In this document: positions 2,678 through 51,668 of the stretch, piece after piece
How positions within the stretch are numbered: the first letter of the stretch is position 1
Layout of the letters: each line of letters begins with the position of its first letter
Assembly: GCA_950096985.1 (NCBI GenBank)
Contig: CATNBA010000012.1
Coordinates: 1 to 54,956, forward strand
From: an uncultured Candidatus Melainabacteria bacterium
Lineage (GTDB): Bacteria > Cyanobacteriota > Vampirovibrionia > Gastranaerophilales > Gastranaerophilaceae
Direction: 5' to 3'
DNA length: 54,956 nucleotides
Position numbers and translations under genes: made by a program
The notes under the pieces: generated by a model
Told to the model about the DNA's origin: nothing
The model's input: the letters and a program-made list of their open reading frames with translations, nothing else
Database searches by the model: none

Positions 2678-2687
2678 TTTTTTTCTC

Positions 2688-5724: not shown

Positions 5725-5758
5725 AATAAAGGGGCGTTATGCCCCTTTATTTCTTTTT
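5724..5758. terminator. bidirectional intrinsic terminator
   Basis: AAATAAAGGGGC (5724-5735) pairs with GCCCCTTTATTT (5741-5752) around GTTAT, with T-rich sequence on the plus side and A-rich sequence on the other. It serves the convergent YtxH and LapA-like genes and reaches into the coding end of the latter. Confidence 0.85.
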
Positions 5759-6108: not shown

Positions 6109-6111
6109 TTT

Positions 6112-7047: not shown

Positions 7048-7509
7048 CTATTTTGTTTTCTTAATTAAAATCAATATTATTAATGCGATTACGCCGACAT
7101 TTATAAAAATGTCTGAAATGTTGAATACAGGAAAGTTGATAAAATTCAATTGAAAATAATCTCTCACAAAGCCGTATGCAATTCTTTCGTGAAGGTTTCC
7201 CGCAATCCCTGCAGAAAGCAAGGAAATAAAAAAACAGGTTTTTAAAGAAATTGATTTTAAATTGTGAATTACGTGCATAGCAAGCAAAACAAGTGCAATC
7301 ATAGATAGAATGATTAATAATTCTCTTGAATCCTGTAGAATACTAAATGCTGCTCCGGTATTTTTTACGTAATTTAATGAAAAAACAGGGTTTGACATAT
7401 GAAATCCGTCACGTAAATTTTCAACCATTACGTTGGACAGATAAAGGTTTGTAAATATAAAAAATATATAACATACCGTGAAATATATAAATTTACTTGC
7501 TTTGTTCAT
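7048..7509 (-). CDS. lspA: lipoprotein signal peptidase (signal peptidase II)
   Basis: Cleaves prolipoprotein signal peptides in the inner membrane. There are four transmembrane helices over 153 residues. Family motifs NTGAAFS, GNLHER, VRDYF and FNISDIF are visible; the Asp residues in VRDYF and NISDI are the expected catalytic dyad. Two oddities: the normally Asp-containing GNxxDR motif reads GNLHER, and the DQxxK motif of helix 1 is missing. ATG 7509 is chosen; a TTG at 7533 would extend the gene further into its neighbour. The gene overlaps the preceding gene by 17 bp. Confidence 0.9.
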   Translation of the reverse strand: MNKASKFIYFTVCYIFFIFTNLYLSNVMVENLRDGFHMSNPVFSLNYVKNTGAAFSILQDSRELLIILSMIALVLLAMHVIHNLKSISLKTCFFISLLSAGIAGNLHERIAYGFVRDYFQLNFINFPVFNISDIFINVGVIALIILILIKKTK

Positions 7510-8407: not shown

Positions 8408-8413
8408 AGTTTT

Positions 8414-8444
8414 ATTATACATAAAAAATTTTTTTATGTATAAT
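8414..8444. promoter_or_regulatory. divergent promoter palindrome
   Basis: Two perfect 15-bp arms, ATTATACATAAAAAA (8414-8428) and TTTTTTATGTATAAT (8430-8444), surround one central base. Each arm ends in an extended -10 box: one drives the exported protein (minus strand, ATG 6 nt away), the other leuS. No -35 box could fit independently on either side. Confidence 0.75.
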
Positions 8445-8476
8445 ATTCTCATATAGATTAGGAGAGATGAAAAAAG

Positions 8477-10951: not shown

Positions 10952-10977
10952 AAAAAGGAGCATTAGCTCCTTTTTTT
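10951..10977. terminator. bidirectional intrinsic terminator
   Basis: AAAAAAGGAGC (10951-10961) pairs with GCTCCTTTTTT around ATTA. It ends leuS on the plus strand and the orphan gene at 10976 on the minus strand. Confidence 0.9.
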
Positions 10978-11302
10978 ATACTACAAAACCTTTGCGATCT
11001 TGCAGGTATTCTATTTCTATAACCCGTCCCAGGTCTGCATATTCGTTATTGCAGGCTTTATTATATTCCATTATGACACTTTTAATCGGTAAAGTCGGAA
11101 CTGAGATTACAGCAAACGGATATTTTTTGTTATTGTCGTGTGTATTTTTTATAAGAATTTTAGTTTCGTCTTTACACTGTCTGCCGTTTTCTTGTTTTTG
11201 CTGAATACCTAAAATATTTTGAGTATCAAGAGTTGTAACTATTTGGTCTCTCGGACCTGTATATTGAACAAAACCTGTAAAATTAATTCCATTTATTTTC
11301 AT
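10976..11302 (-). CDS. hypothetical protein, 108 aa
   Basis: Not recognised. The ATG at 11302 is chosen because AAAGGAG lies 8-9 nt upstream; the upstream in-frame extension lacks a ribosome-binding site. The product begins MKINGINFTGFVQYTG, has no signal peptide or membrane helix, and looks like a small mixed alpha/beta protein. The start with a short Ile/Asn segment ending in F-T-G resembles the N-termini of other orphan proteins in this window. Confidence 0.65.
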   Translation of the reverse strand: MKINGINFTGFVQYTGPRDQIVTTLDTQNILGIQQKQENGRQCKDETKILIKNTHDNNKKYPFAVISVPTLPIKSVIMEYNKACNNEYADLGRVIEIEYLQDRKGFVV

Positions 11303-11380
11303 TAAATTTCTCCTTTCTTTACTCTTAAAATACAAAAATAAATTTTTTTGCTATATAATAATAAAAGAGAGGGGAAGATT

Positions 11381-12751
11381 TTGAAAAACAAATTTTATTT
11401 TATAGCAATAGGCGGAGTTGGAATGAGTGGTTTAGCAAAATATTTGCTTGAAAACGGCTGTGAAGTTTCTGGTTCTGACATTGTTGACAGCAAATATATT
11501 GATAAATTAAGAAAATTAGGCGCGACAGTACATATAGGTCAAAAGGCTGAAAACGTACCTTCTGATGCAATTGTGGTTGCTAGTACGGCTATCAGAGAAA
11601 ATAATCCTGAAATGGTTCGTGCAAGAGAATTGGGTTTGAAGGTTTACCACCGCTCAGATATTTTGGCGGAAATTTCAAGCTGGGGTAAGTTCTTTTTAGG
11701 TTTTTCCGGAACTCACGGAAAAACTACTACAAGCGGGCTTTGTTCTTACGTTTTGGAAAAAGCAGGCTTGATGCCGTCTTACGTTGTCGGCGGTCTTTTG
11801 CCTGATATCGGCTTGAATGCTCATTCTCAGGACGGAAAATTTTTCTGTGCGGAATTGGATGAAAGCGATGGCACAATCGTTAAGTATTCGCCGAATATCT
11901 GTGTTGTAAACAATTTGGAAGCTGACCATTTGGACTTTTATAAAGACGGTTTGAAATCAATTTTGGAAACTTTTGAGAAATTTATTTCAAATATGGCAGA
12001 TGATGCGGTTTTGCTTGTAAATAAAGATTGTAAAGGCGCAATGAGATTAAACAGCCACAAAGCAATTACTTTTGGATTATCTGATGCTGATTACACTGCC
12101 AAAAATATTGAGTTTAAGTCTGATTGCACGACATTTGATATTTATTATAAAAATAATTTTTTAACAGATTTGACGATTATTTTGCGCGGTATGCACAATG
12201 TTTACAATGCCTTATCAGTACTTGCAAGTTTACATCAGGCTGGTGTAGATATTGAAAAAGTTAAACCTCATTTCGCAACTTTCTCAGGAATGGGAAGGCG
12301 TTTTCAAAAAGTCGGCGAATTTGACGGTATAAGCATTTTTGATGATTACGCTCATCACCCGACAGAGATTAAGGCAACTCTTTCATCTGCTGAAGGTATG
12401 GATGGAAAACGAATTATAGCAGTTTTTCAACCTCATAGATATACAAGATTAAAAAATCTTTGGAACGAGTTTTTGGATGCATTTTCAGTAGTTGATAAGG
12501 TTTATGTTACTGATGTCTATGCAGCATCCGAAGATGAAATTGAGGGCGTTAATTCTGAGAATTTTGTTAAAGAATTATCTTCTCAAGTTGATTGTGAATA
12601 TATTCCCGGGTCTATCAAGGATGTCGCTAAAAAATTGTATCCGCAATTAAATGAAAATGATGTTGTTATCGGACTTGGAGCAGGCACTATTACAAATCTT
12701 GGAAAAGAACTTTTGATGATAAAAGATGAGGTTGCTGCAATTGCTCGTTGA
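11381..12751 (+). CDS. murC: UDP-N-acetylmuramate--L-alanine ligase
   Basis: Adds L-Ala to UDP-MurNAc, the first peptide step of peptidoglycan synthesis. From TTG 11381 (GAGGGGAAG just upstream) it has 456 residues. GGVGMSG is at 11-17, the ATP loop SGTHGKTTT at 109-117, and FDDYAHHPTE lies in the C-terminal domain. An in-frame TTG at 11348 falls inside the probable -10 region (TATAAT, 11354-11359), so it is rejected as the start. This is the first gene of the murC-murB-ddl-ftsQ operon; its end overlaps murB by 26 bp. Confidence 0.97.
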   Translation: MKNKFYFIAIGGVGMSGLAKYLLENGCEVSGSDIVDSKYIDKLRKLGATVHIGQKAENVPSDAIVVASTAIRENNPEMVRARELGLKVYHRSDILAEISSWGKFFLGFSGTHGKTTTSGLCSYVLEKAGLMPSYVVGGLLPDIGLNAHSQDGKFFCAELDESDGTIVKYSPNICVVNNLEADHLDFYKDGLKSILETFEKFISNMADDAVLLVNKDCKGAMRLNSHKAITFGLSDADYTAKNIEFKSDCTTFDIYYKNNFLTDLTIILRGMHNVYNALSVLASLHQAGVDIEKVKPHFATFSGMGRRFQKVGEFDGISIFDDYAHHPTEIKATLSSAEGMDGKRIIAVFQPHRYTRLKNLWNEFLDAFSVVDKVYVTDVYAASEDEIEGVNSENFVKELSSQVDCEYIPGSIKDVAKKLYPQLNENDVVIGLGAGTITNLGKELLMIKDEVAAIAR

Positions 12752-13586
12752 GAATAATTTTGAAATAAAAAAACTTACTTCTTTTAAAATCGGCGGGAAA
12801 ATCGCAAAAATGATTTTCCCTGAAACAGTTGAAGAATTTGTTCGAGCATTGCGGGAGAATGAAGGAGCTTTTGTTGCCGGAAATCTTTCCAACACTCTTG
12901 TTTCTTCAAACGACTTTGATGGTGTGGTGATTTCTACTTCAAAATTAAACAGTATTAAAATTGAAGGCAACAGGGTTACGGCAGGCGCAGGTGTCAGAGG
13001 CCCAAAACTTTCCCAAACCGTTGGCGAAAAAGGTCTATCAGGATTGGAGTTTATGATTGGCTTTCCGGGCTCTGTGGGCGGTGAAGTTTATATGAACGCA
13101 GGGGCAAATGGTCAGTGTATTGCGGACTCATTAAAATCTGCAAAAATTTACTGTCTTGAAAAAGGCTTGGTTACCTTGACAGATTTAGAATTTGGCTATA
13201 GAACTTCAATTTGCCAGAAGAAAAATTATATTGTCCTTGAGGCTGAATTTGAACTTACGCCGTCCGCGGGTGTTAAAGAAAAAATGGAAGAAAATCTTGC
13301 ATTTCGAAAAGCTCATCAACCATCTTTAGCCTTACCAAATTGCGGCAGTATATTCAAAAATCCCGAAGGTCATTCAGCAGGCAGATTGTTGGATGAATGC
13401 GGTGTAAAAGGTCTTTCTGTCGGCGGGGTTAAGGTTTGGGAAAATCACGCTAACTTTATTGTAAACTATAATGATGGAACATCTGAAGACGTTGTAAGAT
13501 TAATGCGTGAAATGCAAAAAAGAGTAAAAGAGAAATTTGATATTGAATTGAAGCCTGAAATCAGGTTTTTGGGAGAAGAATTATGA
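12726..13586 (+). CDS. murB: UDP-N-acetylenolpyruvoylglucosamine reductase
   Basis: An FAD enzyme that reduces UDP-GlcNAc-enolpyruvate to UDP-MurNAc using NADPH. 286 residues. The N-terminal SFKIGGKIAKMIFPE and GFPGSVGGEVYMNAGANG are FAD-binding motifs. GSIFKNPEGHSAGRLLDE carries the catalytic Ser, and a family Glu is in the KPEIRFLGE tail. It overlaps murC by 26 bp and ddl by 4 bp (ATGA), so translation is coupled. Confidence 0.96.
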   Translation: MRLLQLLVENNFEIKKLTSFKIGGKIAKMIFPETVEEFVRALRENEGAFVAGNLSNTLVSSNDFDGVVISTSKLNSIKIEGNRVTAGAGVRGPKLSQTVGEKGLSGLEFMIGFPGSVGGEVYMNAGANGQCIADSLKSAKIYCLEKGLVTLTDLEFGYRTSICQKKNYIVLEAEFELTPSAGVKEKMEENLAFRKAHQPSLALPNCGSIFKNPEGHSAGRLLDECGVKGLSVGGVKVWENHANFIVNYNDGTSEDVVRLMREMQKRVKEKFDIELKPEIRFLGEEL

Positions 13587-14515
13587 TAGATAAAAATGCA
13601 AAAATTGCTGTACTTGCAGGCGGAATGTCATCTGAAAAAGAAGTTTCAATGCGTTCGGGTAAAGGTTGCTATGAAGCTTTAAAAAGGCTTGGATATAATA
13701 ATGCCGAATTAGTTGTAGTTGATGAGAATATTGCTCAAACTTTAAAAAACCGCAGCTATGATATTGCTTATAACGCACTTCACGGGAAATACGGTGAAGA
13801 CGGCTGTATTCAAGGTTTATTGGAAATTTTGCAAATCCCTTATACCGGATGCGGAGTTATGGCAAGTTCTGTTTGTATGAATAAAGAATATACAAAAAGA
13901 ATTCTTTCAACTTGCAAAGATATTCCGCTGATAAAATCCGTTTTTGTCAGAAAAGGTGATGATGTTAAAGAAATGACTAAATGTTTAAAATATCCTTTAA
14001 TCACAAAACCTGTTTCTGAAGGTTCAAGTTTTGGTATGACAAAAGTAAATACTCCTGATGAGCTGGAAAAAGCTTACGAAGATGCAATCAAATATAATGA
14101 TGATGTTCTGATTGAAGAATATCTTGTGGGAATTGCGGCAACTGTTGGTATTATCGGTGACGGTGCTGACAGGCAGGTAACAGAGATTTTGGAAATGCGT
14201 CCGAAACACGAATGGTATGACTATGAATGCAAATATACTAAAGGAATGACACAATTTGTTCTGCCTGCCGAACTATCTGATGATATGACAAAAAGAGTTA
14301 AAGAAATTGCATTGAAAGCCTTTGAAATTGCAGGATGCTCAGGTGTTTCAAGAGTAGATTTTCATATTGTCGGTGATATTCCTTATGTGTTGGAAATCAA
14401 TACAAGTCCCGGTATGACAGAAACAAGTGATTTGCCGGCTCAGTCAGCCGCAATGGGTATAAATTATGATAATCTGGTACAACTAATTTTAAACAGTGCA
14501 GGGTTAAATAAATAA
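13583..14515 (+). CDS. ddl: D-alanine--D-alanine ligase
   Basis: Makes the D-Ala-D-Ala dipeptide of the peptidoglycan stem in an ATP-grasp fold. 310 residues. The N-terminal substrate motif AVLAGGMSSEKEVSMRSG, ALHGKYGEDGCIQGLLE, the ATP-binding PLITKPVSEGSSFGM, and the C-terminal metal-site motif EINTSPGMTETS are all present. The start overlaps the murB stop (ATGA) with GGGAGAAG upstream. Its stop overlaps ftsQ by one base. Confidence 0.97.
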   Translation: MIDKNAKIAVLAGGMSSEKEVSMRSGKGCYEALKRLGYNNAELVVVDENIAQTLKNRSYDIAYNALHGKYGEDGCIQGLLEILQIPYTGCGVMASSVCMNKEYTKRILSTCKDIPLIKSVFVRKGDDVKEMTKCLKYPLITKPVSEGSSFGMTKVNTPDELEKAYEDAIKYNDDVLIEEYLVGIAATVGIIGDGADRQVTEILEMRPKHEWYDYECKYTKGMTQFVLPAELSDDMTKRVKEIALKAFEIAGCSGVSRVDFHIVGDIPYVLEINTSPGMTETSDLPAQSAAMGINYDNLVQLILNSAGLNK

Positions 14516-15390
14516 TGGACGAAAACGAACAACAAATTAACGAAGAAAAGCAGCAAGCACCAAATGACGGCAAACACTTTGTAAAAAAGAAACGCCGTGA
14601 GAGAGTTGTGCGTAAAGGCAGAATGAAACAAGAACGTTTTAGAGCTTTTATGCGGTTTTTTATTTCTATAGGTTTGATTGCAGGAATGGCATATGCACTT
14701 AAATCTAACGGTTGGTATATGGATAAAAATGCATTTAATACCGCAGATGGAAGTTCTGTTCAAATTATTAATAATAAAATAGTTCCTTCAGTAAAAATTC
14801 TTGCATTATTAAAAAACAGCAATGTACCCAATGTTCCTTTGTATATGGCACGTACAAATTCTATAAAAAAAGAATTAATGCAGCTTGCTTCCATTGAAAA
14901 TGTTTATATCAGACGGTATGCTTTCCCTGCGCGTATTCAGATTATTATCAGAGAACGTACACCTGTAATTACAGTTTCACCAGATGTTAAATCTGCGCCC
15001 GTTGCATTTTTTACGACGGATGGCAGCCTAATCGGAAGAGAATTTTTGCCGCTTGACAAAGCGTATAAAACAATTCTTGTCCTCTCATACGGAAATAAAG
15101 GTGACGATTATCATAAATGGGATTTGGATAGAATTAAAGAAATTCAAAAAATAGTTAAATACATAGAAACGTATTCAAAAGAACAGGTGGAATATGTTGA
15201 TTTTAGAAATCCAAATGACGTTTTTGTCAAAATAAAAACTGTTAATATAAGAATAGGCAAACTTGACGACAATGTATACAAGCGAATTGAAAGAATTCCA
15301 TCAATTTTGCCTCAGGTAAAAGATGTTGAAACAAAAGTTAAATATTTGGATTTGAGCTGGGAAAAGGTTAATTATTTGAAATTGAAGTAG
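14515..15390 (+). CDS. ftsQ: FtsQ/DivIB-type cell-division protein
   Basis: 291 residues. A long, very basic cytoplasmic tail (KKKRRERVVRKGR at 24-36) is followed by one transmembrane helix at about 43-62. The POTRA domain comes next (about 80-150, with VPLYMARTNSIKKELMQLASIENVYIRRYAFPARIQIIIRERTPV), then a beta domain. It links FtsB/FtsL to the division septum. The position after murC, murB and ddl is the classic dcw order. There is little sequence identity outside POTRA, so the call rests on architecture and context. Confidence 0.85.
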   Translation: MDENEQQINEEKQQAPNDGKHFVKKKRRERVVRKGRMKQERFRAFMRFFISIGLIAGMAYALKSNGWYMDKNAFNTADGSSVQIINNKIVPSVKILALLKNSNVPNVPLYMARTNSIKKELMQLASIENVYIRRYAFPARIQIIIRERTPVITVSPDVKSAPVAFFTTDGSLIGREFLPLDKAYKTILVLSYGNKGDDYHKWDLDRIKEIQKIVKYIETYSKEQVEYVDFRNPNDVFVKIKTVNIRIGKLDDNVYKRIERIPSILPQVKDVETKVKYLDLSWEKVNYLKLK

Positions 15391-15488
15391 CGGATTGCGA
15401 GCTGAAGGCGAAGGTCGCACACGGCGGCGAGGAGACGGCGGAGCAGACCGTAGACCCGTTAATCGCAAGCAACCAAGAAAGGGTGAAA
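15391..15488 (+). promoter_or_regulatory. GC-rich structured leader D of nadE
   Basis: About 98 bp, far richer in G+C than its surroundings. TTGCGA (15395-15400) pairs with TCGCAA (15463-15468) to enclose the element. Inside are repeated GGCG/GGAG runs and a possible GGTC/GACC stem. ACCC (15454-15457) can pair with GGGT (15481-15484), which overlaps the nadE ribosome-binding site. The 3' end AAGAAAGGGTGAAA resembles the ends of leaders A to C. Confidence 0.45.
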
Positions 15489-16880
15489 ATGAAGATTACA
15501 TTAGCACAAATAAAATTAAAAACTGGTGATTTTGAATTTAATTTTGAAAATATAATAAAGAATATTAAAGGTGATTTGATAATTTTTCCGCAGTCTGATA
15601 TTGAAAGTCTTGGTGGAAAAGATTTGGTATTGGATGAAAAATGTAGAAAGTTCCAGAGTGAATTTTACCAAAAAATTGCGGATAAAAACTTTTCTCAAAA
15701 TATTTTAATCGGAGATGTGCTTATTCGAAATGGCGAAGTCGAAGTGTCTGATGACGGATTTTACGATATTTGCGGGAAAAAAGTTTTTGTGTCCGATACG
15801 TTTATAGAAGATATTGAATGTGATTTATATGTATTGGCTAAAAATCGATATTTTGCTATGAATACATATAAAGAATTTGTCGACAGCATTGAAACAAAAA
15901 CAAATTTTGTTTATGTAAATGCGCTTGGACTTGCTGACTGTAATGTATATGCAGGTGGAAGTTTTGCAAAAAATGCAGATAACGAACTTGTTCTTCAAAT
16001 GCCTGTTTGCGAGGAAGATATTGATACGGTAGATTTTTCAAGAGTTATAGAATTTTGTGATGAACCTATAGAAAAGCAGGTTCTTGCAGTTACAACTTTT
16101 GCATTGAAAGAATATTGTGAAAATACAGGCTTTAAAAAAGTAGTTTTAGGTTTATCAGGCGGTATTGACAGCGCATTAACGGCAGCACTTGCAGTAAAGG
16201 CTCTCGGTAGTGAAAATGTTTTCGGTATTTTAATGCCAAGTATGTTTTCATCAGAAGGCAGTATTAAGGATAGTTTGAGGTTGGCAGAAAATTTAGGAAT
16301 GCAAACTGTGACAGAGCCAATTACCTCGTTGTTTGATGCCTTTATGCAAGAGAGAGAAAGAAAACATGACCTTGCCGAGGAAAACCTACAGGCGCGTTTA
16401 CGTGGACTTATTTTGATGTTTTATTCAAACAGAGAAAATATGCTCCTTTTATCTACAGGCAATAAATCTGAAAGTGCTATGGGTTTTGGGACTTTATACG
16501 GCGATTTGGCTGGTGGATATAATTTAATTTGCGACCTTACTAAAACCAATGTTTATAAGCTTTCAAATTATATAAATCGTGAAGGTGAAATTATTCCTCA
16601 AGAGATTATTGATAAAGCTCCGTCAGCAGAACTTCATCCAAATCAAAAAGACAGCGATAGGCTGCCTGAGTATGATGTTTTAGACCAAATTATTGAAATG
16701 TATCTTGAGCAAAATATGTCAGCTGATGAAATCCCTTTTGAACGTTCAATTGTAGATGAAGTTATTACAAAAATTCACAGATTTCAATTCAAACGTCATC
16801 AGGTCTGTCTTGGTGTAAGGCTTACAGAACGGGCATTCTGCGGCGGTGTAAATTTACCTGTTATTCAAAAACTATATTGA
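15489..16880 (+). CDS. nadE: NAD+ synthetase with degenerate glutaminase-like domain
   Basis: Converts deamido-NAD+ to NAD+. From ATG 15489 it has 463 residues: a shortened nitrilase-like domain (1-185) and an intact synthetase domain. The latter has the ATP loop LSGGIDSA at 222-229, STGNKSESAMGFGTLYGDLAGGYN, and the C-terminal RFQFKRHQ. The nitrilase domain reads FPQ (33-35) where glutamine-dependent enzymes have a catalytic Glu (FPE). The expected ICED-type Cys is absent (FIED at 105-108) and no catalytic Lys is apparent. It may therefore use free ammonia or a partner glutaminase. Confidence 0.9.
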   Translation: MKITLAQIKLKTGDFEFNFENIIKNIKGDLIIFPQSDIESLGGKDLVLDEKCRKFQSEFYQKIADKNFSQNILIGDVLIRNGEVEVSDDGFYDICGKKVFVSDTFIEDIECDLYVLAKNRYFAMNTYKEFVDSIETKTNFVYVNALGLADCNVYAGGSFAKNADNELVLQMPVCEEDIDTVDFSRVIEFCDEPIEKQVLAVTTFALKEYCENTGFKKVVLGLSGGIDSALTAALAVKALGSENVFGILMPSMFSSEGSIKDSLRLAENLGMQTVTEPITSLFDAFMQERERKHDLAEENLQARLRGLILMFYSNRENMLLLSTGNKSESAMGFGTLYGDLAGGYNLICDLTKTNVYKLSNYINREGEIIPQEIIDKAPSAELHPNQKDSDRLPEYDVLDQIIEMYLEQNMSADEIPFERSIVDEVITKIHRFQFKRHQVCLGVRLTERAFCGGVNLPVIQKLY

Positions 16881-16963
16881 TTTATTCACCACATTTTGTT
16901 TGGTTGTTATATATATCACAATATTACTGTTTTACATTTGATAAAAATTTTTTTAAAATAATA

Positions 16964-16992
16964 TTGCAAATTTTAAAAAAAATTGTTATAAT
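16964..16992 (+). promoter_or_regulatory. sigma-70-type promoter of the MBL-fold gene
   Basis: TTGCAA (16964-16969), a 17-bp spacer, then TATAAT (16987-16992). The gene start follows 26 bp downstream. Confidence 0.7.
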
Positions 16993-17017
16993 GTGTTTAA
17001 GATAGTTGAGGGTATTA

Positions 17018-17809
17018 ATGGATTTAACAGTTTTAGTCGACAACAACTGCAAAATTGAGTACAATCTTTTAGCTGAACCGGCTTTATCGTTTTTGCTTGA
17101 AAATGAATATCACAAAGTATTGTTTGATTGTGGATATAGTGATGTATTCATAAAAAATGCTTACAAGCTTGGTTTGGATTTAAGCGATGTGACGGACATT
17201 GTATTATCACATGGTCATAATGACCATACAGGCGGCTTGTTAAGGCTTGAGGCTTTATATCGTAAAATGATGAAAGCCGGAATTAGTTTGAATTTAAAAA
17301 CTATATTTTGTACTCCAAATGCATTTGATATTAAGTTGGATACCAACGATCGTAATATAGGTTTCCCGGGTAAAGTTGAAGAATTATGCGATATATTTGA
17401 AGTTGACTTCACAGATAGCTGTACTTGGCTTTCGCCTAAATTGCTTTTTTTAGGTCAAATCCCTAAAACTTACGATACCGATTATAAATATGACGACGAT
17501 ACTGCACTTGTATTTAAATCCGAAAATGGTCTGGTAATAATAAGCGGATGCTGTCATATCGGGATTAAAAATCTTATTGAGTATGCACAAAAAGTCACAG
17601 GTGAAAAACGTATAGATACTTTCATCGGCGGAATACATTTAGTTGATAAAAGTGAATATAGAATTAGAGAACTTGGCATTTATTTGCGAAATTTAAATAT
17701 TAATAATTTTTATCCTTGTCACTGTTGTGATTTAAATGCAAAAATTATTTTGTCTGAATATATTAAGGTTAAAGAAGTTTATTCAGGTTTATTTTTGTCA
17801 TTTAATTAA
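17018..17809 (+). CDS. metallo-beta-lactamase-fold hydrolase
   Basis: 263 residues from ATG 17018 (GAGGG upstream; TTG 17006 rejected). The metal motif SHGHNDHTGG is at about residues 64-73, with further metal-binding His in SGCCHIG and in the C-terminal YPCHCCD. The overall pattern resembles the 7,8-dihydropterin-6-methyl-4-(beta-D-ribofuranosyl)-aminobenzene-5'-phosphate synthase-like branch, whose bacterial members have no agreed substrate. It is a single gene with its own promoter. Confidence 0.8.
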   Translation: MDLTVLVDNNCKIEYNLLAEPALSFLLENEYHKVLFDCGYSDVFIKNAYKLGLDLSDVTDIVLSHGHNDHTGGLLRLEALYRKMMKAGISLNLKTIFCTPNAFDIKLDTNDRNIGFPGKVEELCDIFEVDFTDSCTWLSPKLLFLGQIPKTYDTDYKYDDDTALVFKSENGLVIISGCCHIGIKNLIEYAQKVTGEKRIDTFIGGIHLVDKSEYRIRELGIYLRNLNINNFYPCHCCDLNAKIILSEYIKVKEVYSGLFLSFN

Positions 17810-39407: not shown

Positions 39408-41144
39408 ATGATATTAGATAAAGTTTATTCAGCTGATGATGTTAAAAAATTATCATTTGATGAAATGAAATCGCTTGCCGGTGAAATCCGCGAACTTATT
39501 ATAAAAAAGGTTAATACAACAGGCGGTCATATGGGACCGAATTTAGGGATTGTAGAAGCAACAATTGCAATGCACTATGTTTTTAATTCTCCTGTTGATA
39601 AATTTGTATTTGATGTTTCACATCAATGTTATCCGCATAAAATTTTAACAGGCAGAAAAGAAGGCTTTACAAACCCTGACAAATATAATGTTTATACAGG
39701 ATACACTGCTCCTGAGGAAAGTGAACATGATTTATTTAAAGTCGGTCATACTTCAACTTCTGTTTCACTTGCTTGCGGTGTTGCAAAAGCAAGAGATTTA
39801 AAAGGTGAAAAAGGTAATGTTATAGCGCTTATTGGCGACGGCTCACTCAGCGGCGGCGAAGCTTTAGAAGGGCTTAATAATGCCGGAGCTATGAATAGTA
39901 ATATCATTATTATTGTTAACGATAATGATATGTCTATTGCTGAAAATCAAGGCGGACTTTATGATAATCTTAAACTTTTAAGAGAGACAAACGGTCAGGC
40001 TGAATGTAATTTCTTTAAATCACTGGGATTTGAATATCTTTATGTTGCAGAGGGCAACAATGTTGAAAAACTTGTTGAGGCATTTGAAAAGGTTAAGGAC
40101 ACAAAATGCCCGATTGTTGTTCATATCAAAACTTTAAAAGGATGCGGACTTGCACAGGCAGAGGAGAATAAAGAGGCATTTCACTGGATTTTACCTGGAA
40201 CTCTTGATGAAGACAAAGGTTCTGTTGATTTTGTTGAAAATTACACATCACTTACGCGTCAATATATTTTGGACAAAGCAAAAGAGGATAAGACCGTAAT
40301 TGCAGTTAATGCTGGAACACCCGGTGTTTTTGGATTTGATAAAGAATTTAGAAATAGTCTCGGCGTACAGTATACTGATGTCGGTATTGCGGAGGAACAT
40401 GGTGTAGCATACTGTTCTGCTCTTGCAAAAGGAGGAGCAAAACCGATTTTTGCAGTTATGAGTTCATTTGTTCAGAGAACTTATGACCAAATTTCACAGG
40501 ATTTATGTCTAAATAATTCTCCTGTAACAATGCTGATATATTGGGGCGGGATTTCGGGTGCGGATGCAACTCATCTTTGCACATTTGATATTCCTTTGAT
40601 TTCAAATATTCCTAATATGGTTTATCTTGCGCCTGCAAATAAGGAAGAATATCTTGCAATGCTTGATTGGTCTTTAGAGCAGACTGAAAAACCAGTTGCA
40701 ATAAGAGTGCCTAATGTTGAGCTTATATCAACGGGAGTTGAGGATAAAACAGATTATTCTGTTGTTAAATTTAAAGTTGTTGAACAGGGTGAGAAAGTTG
40801 CAATTCTTGCTTTAGGAAATTTCTTTGAACTTGGCAGAGAGGTCAAAGAACAACTCGGAATTAATGCAACACTCATTAATCCATGCTTTATGACAGATAT
40901 TGATGAGGAATTATTGGAAAGTTTAAAAGCAAATCACTCCGTTGTGGTTACTCTTGAGGATGGTGAGCTTGACGGCGGATTTGGCGAAAAAATTACAAGA
41001 TTTTACGGTAATTCGGATATGAAAGTTCTAAACTACGGCGCAAAAAAAGAATTTACTGACAGAGTTCCGTTGGAAGAATTATACATAAGGTATCGTCTGA
41101 CAAAAGAACTTATTGCAGAAGATGTGAAAAATTTAATTTCATGA
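39408..41144 (+). CDS. DXS-like thiamine-diphosphate transketolase family enzyme
   Basis: 578 residues, shorter than typical DXS (about 620). Thiamine motifs are present: FDVSHQCYPHKILTGR (68-83), GDGSLSGG (143-150) and NDNDMSIAEN (171-180). AEEHG holds the activating Glu at about 330. The DRAG segment that helps bind the acceptor in DXS is replaced by YWGGISGADATH (378-389). It may be a paralogue using another acceptor, although pdxJ needs DXP and no other DXS is in the window. AAGGAGAG is upstream. ilvE follows after 27 bp. Confidence 0.8.
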   Translation: MILDKVYSADDVKKLSFDEMKSLAGEIRELIIKKVNTTGGHMGPNLGIVEATIAMHYVFNSPVDKFVFDVSHQCYPHKILTGRKEGFTNPDKYNVYTGYTAPEESEHDLFKVGHTSTSVSLACGVAKARDLKGEKGNVIALIGDGSLSGGEALEGLNNAGAMNSNIIIIVNDNDMSIAENQGGLYDNLKLLRETNGQAECNFFKSLGFEYLYVAEGNNVEKLVEAFEKVKDTKCPIVVHIKTLKGCGLAQAEENKEAFHWILPGTLDEDKGSVDFVENYTSLTRQYILDKAKEDKTVIAVNAGTPGVFGFDKEFRNSLGVQYTDVGIAEEHGVAYCSALAKGGAKPIFAVMSSFVQRTYDQISQDLCLNNSPVTMLIYWGGISGADATHLCTFDIPLISNIPNMVYLAPANKEEYLAMLDWSLEQTEKPVAIRVPNVELISTGVEDKTDYSVVKFKVVEQGEKVAILALGNFFELGREVKEQLGINATLINPCFMTDIDEELLESLKANHSVVVTLEDGELDGGFGEKITRFYGNSDMKVLNYGAKKEFTDRVPLEELYIRYRLTKELIAEDVKNLIS

Positions 41145-44510: not shown

Positions 44511-46487
44511 ATGAATAGCTTTTTCATAGGTATAATTATTTTATTACTCTGCGGATTTATTGCAGGAATATTTTCGGATAAGCTTAAAATTATTGCATTG
44601 TCTATATTTACAGGTTTAGCATCCGTTTTTTGTTTTGTGCCTGCTATTAAAGTTTTGCTCAATGGTGAAGTTCTGATTAAAACCTTTGATTTTAATGAAT
44701 TGTTCGGAACGGTAAACTTTGTAATTGACCCGCTTTCAGCATTTTTTGTCGCAATAATTTCGGTTATGAGTTTAGTTACGGTAATCTATGCTAACGGGTA
44801 TTTAAGACCTTATATTGAAAAGGGTAAAAATATTAATGCACATTTAATATTTTTGCCTATGCTTTTTGCATCTATGCAGGCTGTTGTTACCTGCCAGAAT
44901 GCGTTTATGTTTTTAATATGCTGGGAAATAATGTCATTAAGTTCATTTTTTCTTGTTATTTTTGAAAACGAAAAAAAAGATGTTTTAAGGGCCGGAATAA
45001 AATACTTAGTATTTATGCATATTTCGGTTATTTTTATAATGATTGCATTTGCTCTTTTATCTGTTAAGGCAGGAAGCTTTGATTTTAATGCTTTCAAATC
45101 GGTTTTAGGTGAAAATGTTCATTTTGCAAATTCGGTATTTGCATTATTATTTATAGGGTTTGGAACAAAAGCAGGTTTTGTTCCGTTCCACAACTGGTTA
45201 CCTGACGGACACCCCGCTGCACCATCTCATGTTAGTGCTGTTATGTCAGGTGTAATGATTAAAACCGGTATTTATGGAATATTAAGATTAATTTCACTTA
45301 TGGGAACTCCGGCTAAGGGTATTGCTTTTGCAGTGCTTGTAATATCTTTGGTTACTGCTTTATATGGAGTTTTATATGCAATCACGCAAAACGATATTAA
45401 AAGACTTCTTGCATACAGCAGTATTGAAAATATAGGTATAATTGGTATGGGTATCGGTGTTGGTATGCTTGGACTTGCATACAACCATCCTGTTGTAGCA
45501 ATGCTCGGGTTTGCAGGCAGTATGTTTCATATCTTGAACCACTCCATATTTAAAGAACTTTTATTTATGGGGGCAGGAAGTGTCTACACAAAAACTCATA
45601 CAAGAAATATTGAAATTCTTGGCGGATTAATAAAATCAATGCCAAAAACAGGGTTATTATTTCTTACAGGTGCTGTCGCAATTTGCGGGTTGCCGCCTTT
45701 TAACGGATTTATAAGCGAATTTTTGATTTATCTTGGGATGTTCAAAGGACTTTTAATTCACAATTTTTCATCTGTAATTTTAATTTTGTTTGCGATTGCA
45801 GGTTTAGCATTAGTTGGGACTATGGCTTTATTATGTTTTACAAAAGCATTCAGTATAATATTTCTTGGAATGCCAAGAAGTGCTTCTGCACAAAAAGTTA
45901 CAAGAGATTGTGAATTTTCAATGATCTTACCGATGGGATTTCTTGCGGTAATGGCACTTTTAATAGGAGTTTTGCCAATATTTGCATTTGTGTTGATTTT
46001 AAGTCCGGTAAGCGTTTTAATGCCTGTTGTACAATATAATATATTACCGACACTTTCGATTGTTAGTGTAATTACATTATATGCGCTTGCATTTTTGGTA
46101 TTCCTTGCAGTTCTTATAATTGTTAAGGTAAAACTTACAAACGGTAAAATTGATATGCACGAAACATGGGGATGTGGTTACAATAGAGCAAATAACCATA
46201 TGCAATATACTGCATCTTCTTATGCAAGTCCGTTTTTATCAATGTTAAATCCTTTATTTAAGAAAGTATTTGATGTAGAAAAGCCTAGAAAATTATTCCC
46301 GCACAGTGCTCATTTTAATTTCCACGTAGAAGATATAGAAGAGGCTTATGTGATTGAACCTATTTTGAAATCTGATGAGTGGTTCTTATCTAAATTTGAA
46401 GGTCTTCAAAGCGGTAATATTCAGTCGTATATTAAATATGGCTTAATATTCCTTGTAATTGTAATAATCGGGAGTTTGTTAATATGA
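44511..46487 (+). CDS. hyfB: Ehr/hydrogenase-4-like membrane subunit B (NuoL-type)
   Basis: 658 residues and about 14-16 helices. A proton/cation-conducting antiporter-like subunit of group 4 hydrogenase and Ehr complexes. GTKAGFVPFHNWLPDGHPAAPSHVSAVMSGVMIKTGIYG is the diagnostic helix pair with conserved Lys and His, and KRLLAYSSIENIGIIGMGIG follows. CGLPPFNGFISEF is also typical. A C-terminal extension (KIDMHETWGCGYN...) is as in HyfB/HycC. It overlaps the next gene by 4 bp. The symbol is by homology. Confidence 0.92.
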   Translation: MNSFFIGIIILLLCGFIAGIFSDKLKIIALSIFTGLASVFCFVPAIKVLLNGEVLIKTFDFNELFGTVNFVIDPLSAFFVAIISVMSLVTVIYANGYLRPYIEKGKNINAHLIFLPMLFASMQAVVTCQNAFMFLICWEIMSLSSFFLVIFENEKKDVLRAGIKYLVFMHISVIFIMIAFALLSVKAGSFDFNAFKSVLGENVHFANSVFALLFIGFGTKAGFVPFHNWLPDGHPAAPSHVSAVMSGVMIKTGIYGILRLISLMGTPAKGIAFAVLVISLVTALYGVLYAITQNDIKRLLAYSSIENIGIIGMGIGVGMLGLAYNHPVVAMLGFAGSMFHILNHSIFKELLFMGAGSVYTKTHTRNIEILGGLIKSMPKTGLLFLTGAVAICGLPPFNGFISEFLIYLGMFKGLLIHNFSSVILILFAIAGLALVGTMALLCFTKAFSIIFLGMPRSASAQKVTRDCEFSMILPMGFLAVMALLIGVLPIFAFVLILSPVSVLMPVVQYNILPTLSIVSVITLYALAFLVFLAVLIIVKVKLTNGKIDMHETWGCGYNRANNHMQYTASSYASPFLSMLNPLFKKVFDVEKPRKLFPHSAHFNFHVEDIEEAYVIEPILKSDEWFLSKFEGLQSGNIQSYIKYGLIFLVIVIIGSLLI

Positions 46488-47392
46488 TTATAAATTTGGT
46501 AATACTTTTAATTATTCCGTTTTTGATGGCGGGTATTATAAAAAAGACAAAAGCTTTTTGGGGCGGACGAAAAGGAGCACCGATACTTCAGCCTTTGTAT
46601 GATTTTATAAAGTTATTGAAAAAAGATTTTGTAATAAGCAAAACAACATCTTCAATATTCAAGATTGCCCCTGTTGTTCAGATTGCATCAGTGTTGTTTG
46701 CATCAATGTTTGTGCCTTTGGCTTGCGGCAGTGCATTAATTAATGTTTCGGCAGGATTGGTAATTTTTGCTTATACATTGAGTTTAGGTAAATTTGTTTC
46801 ACTGATTTCGGCAATGGATACAGGAAGTTCATTTGAAGGAATGGGCGCATCACGTGAGGCTTGTTTTACAACAATTGTTGAACCGGCATTTTTTATGTTA
46901 ATTGCTTCGATTATGGTATTGAGCGGAAACTTCACATTTGACAGTTTACAGAATATTCTGGTAAGTGCGGGAAATTATGGTGTATTAATTCAAATATTTG
47001 CGGTTGTTGTATTATTTATTATGATTTTGATTGAAGGGTCAAGAGTTCCTGTTGACGACCCTGCAACTCACCTTGAGTTGACTATGATACATGAAGTTAT
47101 GATTTTGGATAATTCAGGAAGCGACCTTGCATTCTTTACGTGGGCAAATTCAATAAAGATGTTTTTGTTGTCATCTTTAATTGCTTATATTGTTATTCCA
47201 CAGGGGTTAACTGAGTGGATGTCGATTGCGGCTTACCTTTTAGTAATGTTTATAATCTCTGTTGTTATTGGAACTATTGAGTCGGCAATGGCAAGATTTA
47301 GAATGTCGCACGTATTTGAATTTGTATTTTTAATGAGTTCATTTGCGCTTGTGGTTCTTGCGCTTGTTACTGCAAGGATGTTTGGAGGTTAG
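46484..47392 (+). CDS. hyfC: Ehr/hydrogenase-4-like membrane subunit C (NuoH-type)
   Basis: 302 residues with about eight helices. It is the NuoH/HycD-like connector between the peripheral arm and the ion-pumping subunits. RKGAPILQPLYDFIKLLKK (near the start), FEGMGASREACF and ILIEGSRVPVDDPATHLELTMIHEVM carry the acidic residues of the E-channel. It overlaps hyfB by 4 bp (ATGA); the gap to hyfE is 3 bp. The symbol is by homology. Confidence 0.94.
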   Translation: MIINLVILLIIPFLMAGIIKKTKAFWGGRKGAPILQPLYDFIKLLKKDFVISKTTSSIFKIAPVVQIASVLFASMFVPLACGSALINVSAGLVIFAYTLSLGKFVSLISAMDTGSSFEGMGASREACFTTIVEPAFFMLIASIMVLSGNFTFDSLQNILVSAGNYGVLIQIFAVVVLFIMILIEGSRVPVDDPATHLELTMIHEVMILDNSGSDLAFFTWANSIKMFLLSSLIAYIVIPQGLTEWMSIAAYLLVMFIISVVIGTIESAMARFRMSHVFEFVFLMSSFALVVLALVTARMFGG

Positions 47393-47395
47393 AGG

Positions 47396-48046
47396 ATGGT
47401 AAACGGATTTTTGATACTTTTCGGACTTACAATGCTATATTTATCTGCAACCAGCAGAATTGTTGCGCATATAAGATTATTGATTGCACAGGGAATTTTA
47501 CTTTTCCTTATCTGCTGTTGTGGTATGGAACATATTGATAAACTTAATTTTGCTTTTTTGACAGTTGAAACTTTAATTGTCAAAGCAATTATTATACCAT
47601 GGTTTTTGTACAGAGTTTTGAGAAAAACTCATTCAAACCGTGACGTTGCGGCAAATATTCCTCACTTTTACTGTTTGGTAATTTCAAGTGTAATTTTATT
47701 GGCAGGATTTTTGGTGTCAGAATATTTTGTTTCTTCAATGAAACTTATTTCGCCGATGTTCTTCGGAGTTTCTGTTGCAACAATTATTATTAGTTTATGG
47801 TTGATTACTATTAAACACAAAATTATTTCTAACGTAATCGAGTTTATTACAATGGAAAACGGTATATTTTTATTATCGCTTTCTGTTGCAAAAGAAATGC
47901 CTATCTTGGTTAATATGGGCGTTTTGCTTGACGTATTTATTGCCGTTTATATTTTGGGCTTATTCGTTAACGTTATTAACAAGGAATTTAATGACCTTGA
48001 AGTTTCTAATTTATCAGATTTAAAGGATTATGAAAACAATGATTAG
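47396..48046 (+). CDS. hyfE: Ehr/hydrogenase-4-like membrane subunit E
   Basis: 216 residues and about six helices. It resembles HyfE, which corresponds to NuoK in the N-terminal part of complex I modules. ITMENGIFLLSLSVAKEMPILVNMGVLLDVFIAVYILG is the characteristic conserved stretch with a buried Glu. AGAGG precedes the ATG. Its end overlaps the following gene by 17 bp. The symbol is by homology. Confidence 0.9.
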   Translation: MVNGFLILFGLTMLYLSATSRIVAHIRLLIAQGILLFLICCCGMEHIDKLNFAFLTVETLIVKAIIIPWFLYRVLRKTHSNRDVAANIPHFYCLVISSVILLAGFLVSEYFVSSMKLISPMFFGVSVATIIISLWLITIKHKIISNVIEFITMENGIFLLSLSVAKEMPILVNMGVLLDVFIAVYILGLFVNVINKEFNDLEVSNLSDLKDYENND

Positions 48047-49466
48047 CACACTTTTAATATTTCCGATAATTGCATGTATATTGACGCTTTTAATCAAAAA
48101 CAGAAAATTTAATACGTTTTTGGTAAGTTTGTATGCAGTTGTACATTTTGTAATTACAGTATTGCTGACACTTGGTTATGGTGACAAGACAATACCTTAT
48201 TTTGCGGTTGATAATACAAATTTAATCTTTTTAATTGTATTGTCACTCGTATTCTTGATGGTAGCTGTTTATAATGCAGGTTATGTCAAGAATTTTGAAT
48301 TTCCCGACAAAAAGATTAGTCATTATTCATTTATGATTTTGATATTTGTACTTTCAATGACAGGAACATTATTAAGTACTGATTTGGGATTGGCCTGGGT
48401 TTTGGTTGAGGCTACAACTTTATCAAGTGCATATTTGATTTATTTCAATAAAACAAAACATTCAATTGAAGCTGCCTGGAAATATGTATTCATTTGCTCA
48501 ATCGGTATTGCTTTGGCGTTTGTCGGAATTATTTTGTTAAACATTTCAACAGGTTCGGTAAACTCCTTGAGTTTTGCAGAACTTTACAGCCATGCGGGTC
48601 AATTTGATTTGAATTGGTTGAAAATTGCATTTGTATTTATGCTGTTCGGGTTTGGTGCAAAAATGGGATTGGCTCCAATTCATTTCTGGTTGCCTGACGC
48701 GCACTCTGAAGCTCCGTCGCCGATTTCCGCATTGCTTTCGGCTTGTCTTTTGAATTCTGCTTTTCTTGTAATTGTCAGAGTATTTAAAATTTTAGACATT
48801 GCGGGATGCGCCGATTATGCAAGATTAATGCTTTTTGTAATGGGATTTTTGTCATTATTTGTGACTGCGGTGTTTGTTTACCATATCAAAAATTACAAAA
48901 GAATGCTTGCATATTCATCAATTGAAAATATGGGTATTCTTGCAATTGGAACAGCTTTGGGCGGTGCTGCATTTTATGCTGTAATCTTGCACTTGATAGG
49001 TCACTCGCTTGCTAAAGCATCATTCTTCCTGACTTCAGGTAATGTTTTGGAACTATACGGAACAAAAAGAATTAAGTCTGTAAACGGACTTATAAAAGCT
49101 GACGGCAGAACGGGCTGGCTATGGGTTGCATCATTTTTGGCAATTTGTGCATTCCCTACTTCAGTATTGTTTATCAGTGAGTTTTTGATGATTAAACAAA
49201 TGATTATTGAACATAAGTTTGTGCTTTGTACTTTGTTTGTAATCCTTTTAACAATTGTTCTTTATGGTTTGGGAAAAGTTGTTATTAAGACAGCTTTTGG
49301 AAACGTAAGTGATGATAAGGCAAAAGTTATTGAAGAAAACAGACACAAGGTAAGTGCCTGTATGTATATTCCTCAATTTGTAATGCTTGTAATTGTATTT
49401 GTATTGGGGGTATACATTCCGCCGTTTTTGAATAACATAATTAAACTTGCTATGGCAGGATTTTAG
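48030..49466 (+). CDS. hyfF: Ehr/hydrogenase-4-like membrane subunit F (NuoN/M-type)
   Basis: 478 residues and about 14 helices; the second antiporter-like subunit. GAKMGLAPIHFWLPDAHSEAPSPISALLSACLLNSAFL and KRMLAYSSIENMGILAIG are the diagnostic motifs. TLLSTDLGLAWVLVEATTLSSAYLI carries the conserved helix-5 Glu. Two antiporter-like subunits suggest an ion-pumping complex. It starts within the hyfE end. The gap to the large subunit is 12 bp. The symbol is by homology. Confidence 0.92.
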   Translation: MKTMISTLLIFPIIACILTLLIKNRKFNTFLVSLYAVVHFVITVLLTLGYGDKTIPYFAVDNTNLIFLIVLSLVFLMVAVYNAGYVKNFEFPDKKISHYSFMILIFVLSMTGTLLSTDLGLAWVLVEATTLSSAYLIYFNKTKHSIEAAWKYVFICSIGIALAFVGIILLNISTGSVNSLSFAELYSHAGQFDLNWLKIAFVFMLFGFGAKMGLAPIHFWLPDAHSEAPSPISALLSACLLNSAFLVIVRVFKILDIAGCADYARLMLFVMGFLSLFVTAVFVYHIKNYKRMLAYSSIENMGILAIGTALGGAAFYAVILHLIGHSLAKASFFLTSGNVLELYGTKRIKSVNGLIKADGRTGWLWVASFLAICAFPTSVLFISEFLMIKQMIIEHKFVLCTLFVILLTIVLYGLGKVVIKTAFGNVSDDKAKVIEENRHKVSACMYIPQFVMLVIVFVLGVYIPPFLNNIIKLAMAGF

Positions 49467-49478
49467 AGGATAAAAGAG

Positions 49479-50927
49479 ATGTTAAAAATTCAAAATAATT
49501 TAAAAGTAAACTTATCAGATATTCCCGTTTTGAAAATCGGTGAATTACGTGATGAAATTATAAAAGAAAACAAACGCCCAATTGCGTTTTTCGGTAAAGA
49601 TTGGGGCGAAGGCAGAGTAAGATTGTTTGTAGTTTTGGAAGATGCGCCAAATTTGTTGGTGTCATCTGCTATATTTGAGGCGGACGAAAGATCTTACGAA
49701 TGCATAACAAATGCAATACCAGCTTTCCATATTTATGAAAGAGAATTTTTTGAACAGTTCGGAATTAAACCACTCAATCATCCATGGTTAAAACCAGTGA
49801 GAAAAAATCAGGATAATTATGAATTCTTTGAAATGACCGGTGATGAAGTTCATCAGGTTGCCGTAGGGCCTATTCACGCTGGTGTAATTGAACCGGGACA
49901 TTTCAGATTTATGTGTAACGGCGAAACTGTTTATCATTTAGAGATTATGCTCGGCTATCAGCACAGAGGGGTTGAAGATATGATGGTTAAATGCCCGTCA
50001 AATCAGCTTGCCGAATCAATATGCGGAGACAGTGTTATTGCATATAATACAGCTTATTCTCAAATTATGGAAACTTTAAAAGGTATTCAAATTTCTAATA
50101 AAGCTCAATTGATTAGAAAAGCTTGTTTAGAAATGGAAAGAGCGGCAATTCATATCGGAGATTTGGGCGCAATTGCAGGTGACATAGCATATCTTATGGG
50201 CGCGTCAGTATTTGGCGCGACAAGAACGCTTGTAATTAATACTATGCTTGAATTTTCTGGAAGCCGTTTTGGGCGCGGTATGGTAACCGTCGGCGGTGTA
50301 AATTACGATATTTCCCAAGAAAAAATTGACAGAGCATTAAAAACTTTTGCAAAAGTTGAAAAAGATGTTGAGCGTATGACAAATACAATGCTTAAAAATT
50401 CGACAGTTATGTCAAGATTGGAAAAAACAGGTACAGTAAGTACCGAACGCGCTCAAGAGGCTGGGTTAGTCGGTATGGCAGGACGCGCTTGCGGCGTTGA
50501 TGTAGATGCTCGTTTTGATTTTCCTGATAAATGGAATGAAGAATTGGGTATTCGTAAAAAAGCTTTTAAAGCTACAAATGATGTGAACTCACGCTTTAAA
50601 TTAAGATATAAAGAAATTTTGCAGTCGTTTTCAATTATCAGAAAGTGTTTTGCAAAACTTGCGGAATATAAAGACGAACCTTTTATAGCACAGGGCGGAG
50701 ATTTGCCAAAAGATGCTTTTGTAATTTCGATAGTTGAAGGCTGGAGAGGAGAAGTTGTTCATATTGCAATGACTGACGGCAGTGGAAAGCTTAGCAGATA
50801 TAAAATAAAAGACCCATCTTTTAATAACTGGTACGGCTTGGCTTTGGCTGTCAGAAACAATGGAGTTTCAGACTTCCCGTTATGTAACAAAAGTCACAAC
50901 TTATCATATTGCGGAAATGATTTATAA
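49479..50927 (+). CDS. hyfG: Ehr-type large subunit (NuoC-NuoD fusion) lacking NiFe ligands
   Basis: 482 residues. A NuoC-like part (1-105, with FHIYEREFFEQFGIKPLNHPW) is fused to a NuoD/hydrogenase large-subunit part (PIHAGVIEPGHFRF, HLEIMLGYQHRGVEDMM). The first NiFe motif C-G-x-C reads CGDS at 182-185, so its second Cys is Ser. The C-terminal DPCxxC position reads NLSYCG (474-479), so neither aligned Cys is conserved. It therefore should not bind a NiFe centre and is Ehr-like, not a true hydrogenase. The symbol is by homology only. Confidence 0.9.
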   Translation: MLKIQNNLKVNLSDIPVLKIGELRDEIIKENKRPIAFFGKDWGEGRVRLFVVLEDAPNLLVSSAIFEADERSYECITNAIPAFHIYEREFFEQFGIKPLNHPWLKPVRKNQDNYEFFEMTGDEVHQVAVGPIHAGVIEPGHFRFMCNGETVYHLEIMLGYQHRGVEDMMVKCPSNQLAESICGDSVIAYNTAYSQIMETLKGIQISNKAQLIRKACLEMERAAIHIGDLGAIAGDIAYLMGASVFGATRTLVINTMLEFSGSRFGRGMVTVGGVNYDISQEKIDRALKTFAKVEKDVERMTNTMLKNSTVMSRLEKTGTVSTERAQEAGLVGMAGRACGVDVDARFDFPDKWNEELGIRKKAFKATNDVNSRFKLRYKEILQSFSIIRKCFAKLAEYKDEPFIAQGGDLPKDAFVISIVEGWRGEVVHIAMTDGSGKLSRYKIKDPSFNNWYGLALAVRNNGVSDFPLCNKSHNLSYCGNDL

Positions 50928-50939
50928 GGAATAAAAACT

Positions 50940-51668
50940 ATGTTTGATACATTAAAATCAAGAATTTTTCAAGGAAATCAATTTATAAAAGATATTAAAA
51001 ACGCTCCAATGAGAGAGCAGTTTAGAGGTTTTCCTATATTAAAAGAGGGGCTGAATTGTGATGAAAGTGTCTGTCCGACTGGCGCATTAAAATCTAACTC
51101 AATTGATATGGGCAAATGTACATTCTGCGGAGCTTGTCAATTGCAGGGCGTTGAGTTTACTAACGGTTATAAATTATCATCAACCGACAGAGAAAAATTA
51201 ATCGTTACCCCTCAATCAAATTATGAGGATTACGTAAAATCTGCTGTTGAAGTTAAAAAAGAAATTGTTCAAATGTTCGGACATTCTTTGAAACTTCGTC
51301 AGGTTTCGGCAGGCGGATGCAACGGATGTGAAATGGAATTGAATGCCTGCTCAAACGTTAACTTTGATATGGGTAGATATGGCATAGACTTTGTGGCATC
51401 TCCGAGACATGCTGACGGTATCGTAATTACTGGTCCTATTACAAAAAATATGGCTTATGCATTGGAAGATTGCTACAAATCAGTTCCAAATCCGAAATTA
51501 GTAATCCTTTGCGGAGCTTGCGCAATTTCTGGCGGTGTTTTTCAAAACAGTATAGAATTAAACAGAGAATTTTTGGATAAATATCCGATTGATTTGTATA
51601 TTCCGGGATGCCCCGTTCATCCTCTTACATTCATAAACGGGGTTTTGAGCTATATTTCGCAGAAATAA
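50940..51668 (+). CDS. hyfI: Ehr/hydrogenase-4-like small subunit with ferredoxin domain (NuoB-type)
   Basis: 242 residues. A ferredoxin-like N-terminus has C45-P with C60-x2-C63-x2-C66, enough for one [4Fe-4S] cluster. The NuoB-like part carries the N2-type cluster ligands: C127-x2-C130 (GGCNGCE), C194 (LCGACAISGG) and C224 (PGCP). Electron relay is therefore intact even though the partner large subunit lacks its metal site. It is the last gene of the complex; dapL follows with its own promoter. The symbol is by homology. Confidence 0.92.
   Translation: MFDTLKSRIFQGNQFIKDIKNAPMREQFRGFPILKEGLNCDESVCPTGALKSNSIDMGKCTFCGACQLQGVEFTNGYKLSSTDREKLIVTPQSNYEDYVKSAVEVKKEIVQMFGHSLKLRQVSAGGCNGCEMELNACSNVNFDMGRYGIDFVASPRHADGIVITGPITKNMAYALEDCYKSVPNPKLVILCGACAISGGVFQNSIELNREFLDKYPIDLYIPGCPVHPLTFINGVLSYISQK

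Follow-up and report, generated by a model that had tools for sequence, protein, structure and literature searches.

What can a complex of the energy-converting hydrogenase type do once the NiFe site of its large subunit is gone? The question is raised by a 54,956-nucleotide stretch of DNA (contig CATNBA010000012.1, positions 1 to 54,956 of the forward strand; hereafter the window) from the genome of an uncultured Candidatus Melainabacteria bacterium of the order Gastranaerophilales (GCA_950096985.1, here G000; 1.65 Mb, 98.8% complete). Positions 44511-51668 of the plus strand carry a complete hyfB-C-E-F-large-small operon of six same-strand genes, with overlaps or gaps of 3-17 bases. We conclude that the encoded complex is an energy-converting hydrogenase-related (Ehr) complex, and neither hydrogenase-4 nor a formate dehydrogenase (FDH)-Ehr, because the NiFe ligands are lost and profile searches, the basis of all gene absences reported here, revealed no hypD (PF01924), the maturation gene expected with a group 4 hydrogenase, no NiFe hydrogenase catalytic subunit (PF00374 matched nothing in G000) and no molybdopterin oxidoreductase (PF00384).

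The presence of Ehr in gut Melainabacteria has been known since 2013. Di Rienzi et al. (2013; PMC3787301) described a six-subunit complex annotated as a NiFe membrane-bound hydrogenase that lacks the required hydrogen-binding motifs, remarked that Rnf and formate dehydrogenase are both missing, and considered that the complex might run backwards to supply reduced ferredoxin. Four Melainabacteria genomes with Ehr were described by Matheus Carnevali et al. (2019; PMC6349859), who put forward FDH-Ehr for other lineages. Ehr in the Candidate Phyla Radiation is treated in PMC7304191, and Marreiros et al. (2013) on Ehr is taken here as cited in PMC3787301. New in the present analysis are the small subunit's loss of its outer ferredoxin cluster, recurrent across the family; an adjacent FocA-type channel found in exactly those species of the genus that carry Ehr; a near-universal pocket motif with Asn in place of the canopy Asp; and the disappearance of the proximal-cluster cysteines in Bacteroidales and a few others, where pocket and ion-channel residues stay.

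The large subunit and its remodelled pocket

The best solved relative of the large subunit is E. coli HycE (E 5e-40 by sequence). When its AlphaFold2 model (pLDDT 92.8, 45-sequence alignment) is compared with known structures, HycE scores Z 39.2 (462 residues) and the complex I 49-kDa subunits (NuoD/NDUFS2) Z 35-37. A profile of 45 sequences aligns gap-free through the HycE C-terminus, setting SFNLSYCG against SLDPCYSC. Residue equivalences to HycE, MbhL and Nqo4 are those of sequence alignment: in place of C-G-x-C stands CGDS (182-185), and in place of the C-terminal DPCxxC stands NLSYCG (474-479), so that NiFe ligands 2, 3 and 4 correspond to Ser185, Ser476 and Gly479 and the two CxxC motifs of group 4 NiFe hydrogenases are missing.

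We compared this subunit with its family, for which a scan of genome contigs returned at least 559 relatives, the best 80 being kept; large-subunit counts cover 92 family members and small-subunit counts 100 sequences. Cysteine occurs at position 185, 476 or 479 in none of the 92. Position 185 is Thr in 72, Ser in 18 and Ala in two, and positions 476 and 479 are Ser and Gly throughout (92/92 each). Position 182 is Ala in 67 relatives, Cys in 17, Ser in five, Thr in two and Val in one; its Cys bearers are the window's genus, eleven further gut-clade loci (L031-L041), L045 and L057. On the large-subunit tree the gut clade is nested inside members of the order that mostly have Ala182, and Cys182 is therefore most simply read, from these sequences, as a secondary cysteine and not a surviving ligand. 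A first-pass annotation, made from the letters of the window alone, had proposed Ehr over hydrogenase-4, recognised both altered motifs and counted at least three of four ligands as gone; the HycE alignment, the 92 relatives and the missing hypD and PF00374 matches agree with it, but do not support Cys182 as a remaining ligand.

A true hydrogenase-4 with the unusual ligands Cys182, Cys469 and Cys478 is hardly credible. Its nearest named matches are indeed hydrogenase-4 and formate hydrogenlyase subunits, the best NCBIfam matches being hydrogenase 4 subunits B, F and E, but these score under the family cut-offs, and pipelines would misname the complex in just the way the first-pass annotation had foreseen. 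Three ligand positions are non-Cys in 92/92, no hypD accompanies the operon, and the large subunit stops at GNDL. We rejected the ligand set itself: in the HycE alignment Cys478 lies one residue off a ligand position and Cys469 at none, and two of the three vary among relatives (Cys182 is mostly Ala, and Cys478 is Ser or Ala in 11). E. coli formate hydrogenlyase/hydrogenase-4 (HycE, 7z0s; PMC9474812) shares with the window's complex the fold, the subunit set and the equivalents of Glu193 and Arg478, but differs in that here the four NiFe ligands are lost or derived, Asp529 has become Asn474, and FdhF and maturation genes are missing.

In place of the NiFe site the large subunit ends in FPLCNKSHNLSYCGNDL, with the stop codon directly after it; the corresponding family motif, FPLCNKSFNLSYCGxDL, is near-universal in the 92 relatives. 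The subunit keeps E138, D184, H225 and R423. Specifically, the loop Glu138 (HycE Glu193, MbhL Glu21) and the canopy Arg423 (HycE Arg478) are each present in 92/92, a conservation that may leave protons a route into the pocket (PMC9474812, PMC7684303). The canopy Asp (HycE Asp529) has been described as strictly conserved across hydrogenases and complex I (PMC9474812); its equivalent here is Asn474, and the 92 relatives have Asn (80), Asp (11) or Ala (1).

Respiratory complex I (NuoB/C/D/H/L/M/N) shares the architecture; the window's complex, by contrast, has no NADH module and no quinone-site Tyr or His. The equivalent of the quinone Tyr (Nqo4 Tyr87) is Gly183, the loop carries Glu138, and the proximal motif of the small subunit is the hydrogenase-type CxxC (CNGC, 127-130) and not the adjacent CC of complex I N2. 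For a quinone acceptor G000 has one candidate gene product, a UbiA/MenA-like protein that falls under all NCBIfam cut-offs. Antiporter-like and NuoH-like genes stand with this large subunit in one operon, as expected of Ehr. With known Ehr complexes the window's complex shares group 4-type large and small subunits, antiporter subunits, the absence of NiFe cysteines and of a known acceptor, and occurrence in Melainabacteria; it differs in having the inner ferredoxin cluster only (fused to the small subunit), the derived Cys182, no FDH and a FocA-type neighbour.

The electron wire and what the complex may do

The window's small subunit keeps all four proximal-cluster cysteines (127, 130, 194, 224), and its ferredoxin domain holds one full four-Cys set, the inner cluster (C45, C60, C63, C66), much as the first-pass annotation had described. 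The outer ferredoxin cluster, formed by three upstream cysteines and the last one, is lost in all four Ehr carriers of the genus. By analogy with NuoI (N6a/N6b), we take the lost set to be the cluster farther from the proximal one. Both ferredoxin clusters are kept in the order-level relatives G037, G038, G042, G043, G049, G054 and G055.

We favour, with a little better than even confidence, reading the window's complex as a ferredoxin-linked ion pump with an acceptor that would be neither protons nor quinone. The sequence holds a full membrane arm, the proximal cluster and one ferredoxin-domain cluster, and the NiFe ligands and their maturation are lost. Because the outer cluster is lost, reduced ferredoxin from PFOR would dock straight onto the inner one, and electrons would pass on to the proximal cluster. 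The remodelled pocket would then host the reduction of an acceptor, or its oxidation if the complex runs backwards, and this reaction would move ions through HyfC, HyfB and HyfF. For the window this account is the best supported because it retains wire, pocket and pump alike, each of them conserved. The six Ehr genes, including the shortened small subunit, are under purifying selection (dN/dS 0.026-0.15 when the window is compared with three sister species; within the genus 0.039-0.083 for the large subunit and 0.026-0.034 for the small one; focA and dapL similar), and the operon is therefore in use. G000 encodes PFOR and a second 2-oxoacid:ferredoxin-type gene, as well as a complete trimeric FeFe HydABC with all three H-cluster motifs. 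Neither Rnf nor Nqr was found in G000, and Rnf, absent from 33/33 species of the genus, was rejected as partner or alternative. The ferredoxin-driven pump of the first-pass annotation is plausible, given the ferredoxin clusters and PFOR.

Of the 100 small subunits, 98 have an intact inner cluster, 70 an intact proximal cluster and 44 an intact outer cluster. The proximal set is absent in all 27 Bacteroidales small subunits scored (25 with the pattern DxxC..D..N, one DxxC..E..N, one DxxG..D..N) and in L051 and L109 (Opitutae) and L054 (Planctomycetales), each with its own pattern. A quick maximum-likelihood tree of large subunits, in which many inner branches are weak and change counts are rough minima, needs at least four changes of proximal-cluster state and at least eight of outer-cluster state. 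Large-subunit positions conserved in at least 97% of cluster-bearing members number 77, and all are unchanged in the 29 proximal-less members with an aligned large subunit. In the members checked, HyfB and HyfC show no differences in their charged residues, and among those of HyfF a single His varies (Tyr or Phe in three Bacteroidetes). Searches of the open-access literature found no description of proximal-cluster loss beside a conserved large subunit, and nothing on Ehr in Bacteroidetes.

Three points weigh against an electron-driven pump. No acceptor is known for Ehr and none is encoded in the operon; such a pump fails to explain the proximal-less Bacteroidales and three other relatives, which keep the large-subunit and membrane residues; and in the window's own clade the wire is also worn down, the outer ferredoxin cluster being lost there. 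Either function changed in Bacteroidales, or the function that Ehr complexes have in common is something other than electron transfer. On a rival reading, the redox chain would be dispensable and Ehr a regulated ion transporter, its Fe-S clusters being leftovers shed piecemeal; it could work in an Mrp/antiporter-like way or couple ion flux to what the old pocket binds or converts, be it a small anion or CO2. We regard this as unlikely, though a serious contender. The repeated changes of cluster state and the near-constancy of large-subunit and ion-path residues in proximal-less members speak for it, as do neighbours across phyla that include HTH plus PTS-EIIA regulators and anion carriers of the formate/nitrite (FNT) and SulP families; yet the inner cluster is kept almost throughout, the proximal one in the window and most relatives, and the neighbour links are lineage-specific.

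In the boldest reading, about as unlikely, Ehr would be at least partly redox-free: the remodelled pocket (Glu138, Asp184, Arg423, Asn474, Asn470-Lys471, Ser476-Tyr477, Asp481) would bind or convert a small molecule, CO2/bicarbonate or some small anion perhaps, and no more than that would be needed to gate or drive the complex I-type ion path. If true, clades such as the Bacteroidales would for this reason keep pocket and pump without the proximal cluster. Ehr sits where hydrogenases and complex I join, and its role has been open since its naming. Some lineages lack the outer cluster, some the proximal one and some all clusters of the ferredoxin domain, while pocket and ion-path residues stay constant; evolution has in effect supplied a deletion series, which makes the question testable. 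Should ions still be moved by the proximal-less complexes of Bacteroidales, the shared function would not be electron transfer.

Among individual loci, proximal-less small subunits stand beside fully conserved large subunits in L133-L160 (Bacteroidales), L077, L084, L089, L051, L054 and L109, with CxxA..C..W, NxxE..E..W and DxxV..C..W as patterns besides DxxC..D..N. Two Omnitrophota loci (L079, L098) have lost both ferredoxin-domain clusters and kept the proximal one.

The FocA-type channel and possible substrates

A FocA-type channel is divergent from and adjoins the Ehr operon. Among 33 species of the genus, Ehr occurs in four and the channel in exactly the same four (0/29 non-carriers); in one carrier (G028) the same neighbours lie at two contig ends. 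The probability of this match would be 1 in 40,920 if the two were independent; given their linkage and the single clade that the four carriers make up on the Ehr tree, the match may reflect one gain or loss of a unit. The order porin-focA-Ehr repeats in L111, L113 and L033; that L033 still has it at 67% identity is a sign that the unit is held together by selection. With channel and porin adjoining the operon, a small anion may have a part in Ehr function in the window's lineage, and the co-occurrence is a concrete lead to the substrate in gut Melainabacteria.

A formate-linked complex, like the FDH-Ehr proposed for Riflemargulisbacteria and Saganbacteria (PMC6349859), was one option offered by the first-pass annotation. 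The exactly matching channel and a PFL gene near Ehr in one relative (L032) are consistent with it. Nevertheless, no molybdopterin oxidoreductase was found in G000 or in the other Ehr-carrier genomes, hence no classical formate dehydrogenase, and the operon contains no FDH or NuoE/F-like gene; we rejected a formate dehydrogenase partner. PFL as a formate source was likewise rejected, being absent from G000 and present in 4/33 species, one of them an Ehr carrier. A formate link, contradicted for G000 although the FocA-type neighbour co-occurs exactly, is very improbable.

Some FNT channels carry hydrosulfide, and no PFL or FDH accounts for such a channel here. The complex might accordingly resemble the sulfane-sulfur (polysulfide) reductase MBS, acting at the proximal cluster and releasing HS- by way of the channel. 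Pyrococcus MBS (6u8y; PMC7684303), a characterised relative, is a complex I-family reductase that, like the window's complex, has lost NiFe ligand cysteines and kept the proximal cluster; MBS reduces its substrate there. It needs, however, a shortened CxxC loop with three-Cys ligation, whereas the window's CNGC has hydrogenase spacing; it lacks the loop Glu (PMC7684303), which is invariant in the Ehr family; and it has two other cysteines and another set of membrane subunits. The channel is also far nearer E. coli FocA (181 bits) than 3tdo/3tds (94 bits among other formate/nitrite-family entries, which with NirC score 90-94; algal LCIA, 146). We consider an MBS-like activity improbable.

Genes of the window and Ehr loci across phyla

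The six operon genes correspond to hydrogenase-4/complex I subunits (B, C, E, F, NuoC/NuoD-like, NuoB-like), as the first-pass annotation had seen. Scans for promoters and terminators gave nothing decisive.

Table 1. Coordinates of the Ehr operon and its divergent neighbours in the window.
Feature	Position	Strand	Remarks
hyfB-like antiporter subunit, NuoL/MrpA type, 658 aa	44511..46487	+	E139, K220, K251, K297, H340, H344, K348, E403 kept (ion path)
hyfC-like (NuoH/HycD) membrane anchor, 302 aa	46484..47392	+	conserved loop EGSRxPxDDPxTHLELTMIHE
hyfE-like small membrane subunit, 216 aa	47396..48046	+	
hyfF-like antiporter subunit, 478 aa	48030..49466	+	E127, E147, K151, K211, K290, K329, E384 kept
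Large subunit, fused NuoC/NuoD, HycE type, 482 aa	49479..50927	+	C182, S185, S476, G479 at NiFe ligand positions
Small subunit, 242 aa	50940..51668	+	N-terminal ferredoxin domain and HycG/NuoB domain
FocA-type formate/nitrite-family channel, 288 aa	43372..44238	-	divergent from Ehr operon
Porin_O_P outer-membrane porin, 395 aa	42185..43372	-	adjoins focA

Relatives of the operon were found in Gastranaerophilales, Bacteroidota, Spirochaetes, Planctomycetes, Verrucomicrobia, Acidobacteria, Desulfobulbaceae and others. All six subunits are kept in about 75 loci from many phyla, in nearly always the same order. A hyfB-like gene is duplicated in L054, L059, L062, L081, L082, L086, L089, L093, L096 and L099, and L104 contains a tandem pair of Ehr operons (2225-17031).

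The commonest Ehr neighbour across phyla is an HTH_17 (excisionase-type) plus PTS EIIA (PtsN-like) regulator, upstream in 20 loci (for example L062:362-1030, L068:2334-3002 and L102:1482-2174) and absent beside the window's operon. A SulP-family anion transporter adjoins Ehr in four loci (L068:541-2250, L087:570-2279, L110:207-2234, L064:451-2115), co-directionally in three. Desulfobulbaceae-like loci carry a conserved protein beside Ehr (L056:10648-11826, L065:1697-2866, L095:87-896) that weakly resembles LCIB-type carbonic anhydrases; the match (E 5e-5 and 9e-4) is under the gathering score, has no PDB counterpart and is a lead only. Distant Melainabacteria Ehr loci have a Porin_O_P-type porin directly 3' of the small subunit on the same strand (L045:10222-11424, L046:6250-7455). 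Elsewhere in the window, positions 39408-41144 encode a short (578 aa) DXP-synthase/transketolase-like protein followed by a class IV aminotransferase, and a dxs-like gene lies near Ehr in L031 as well.

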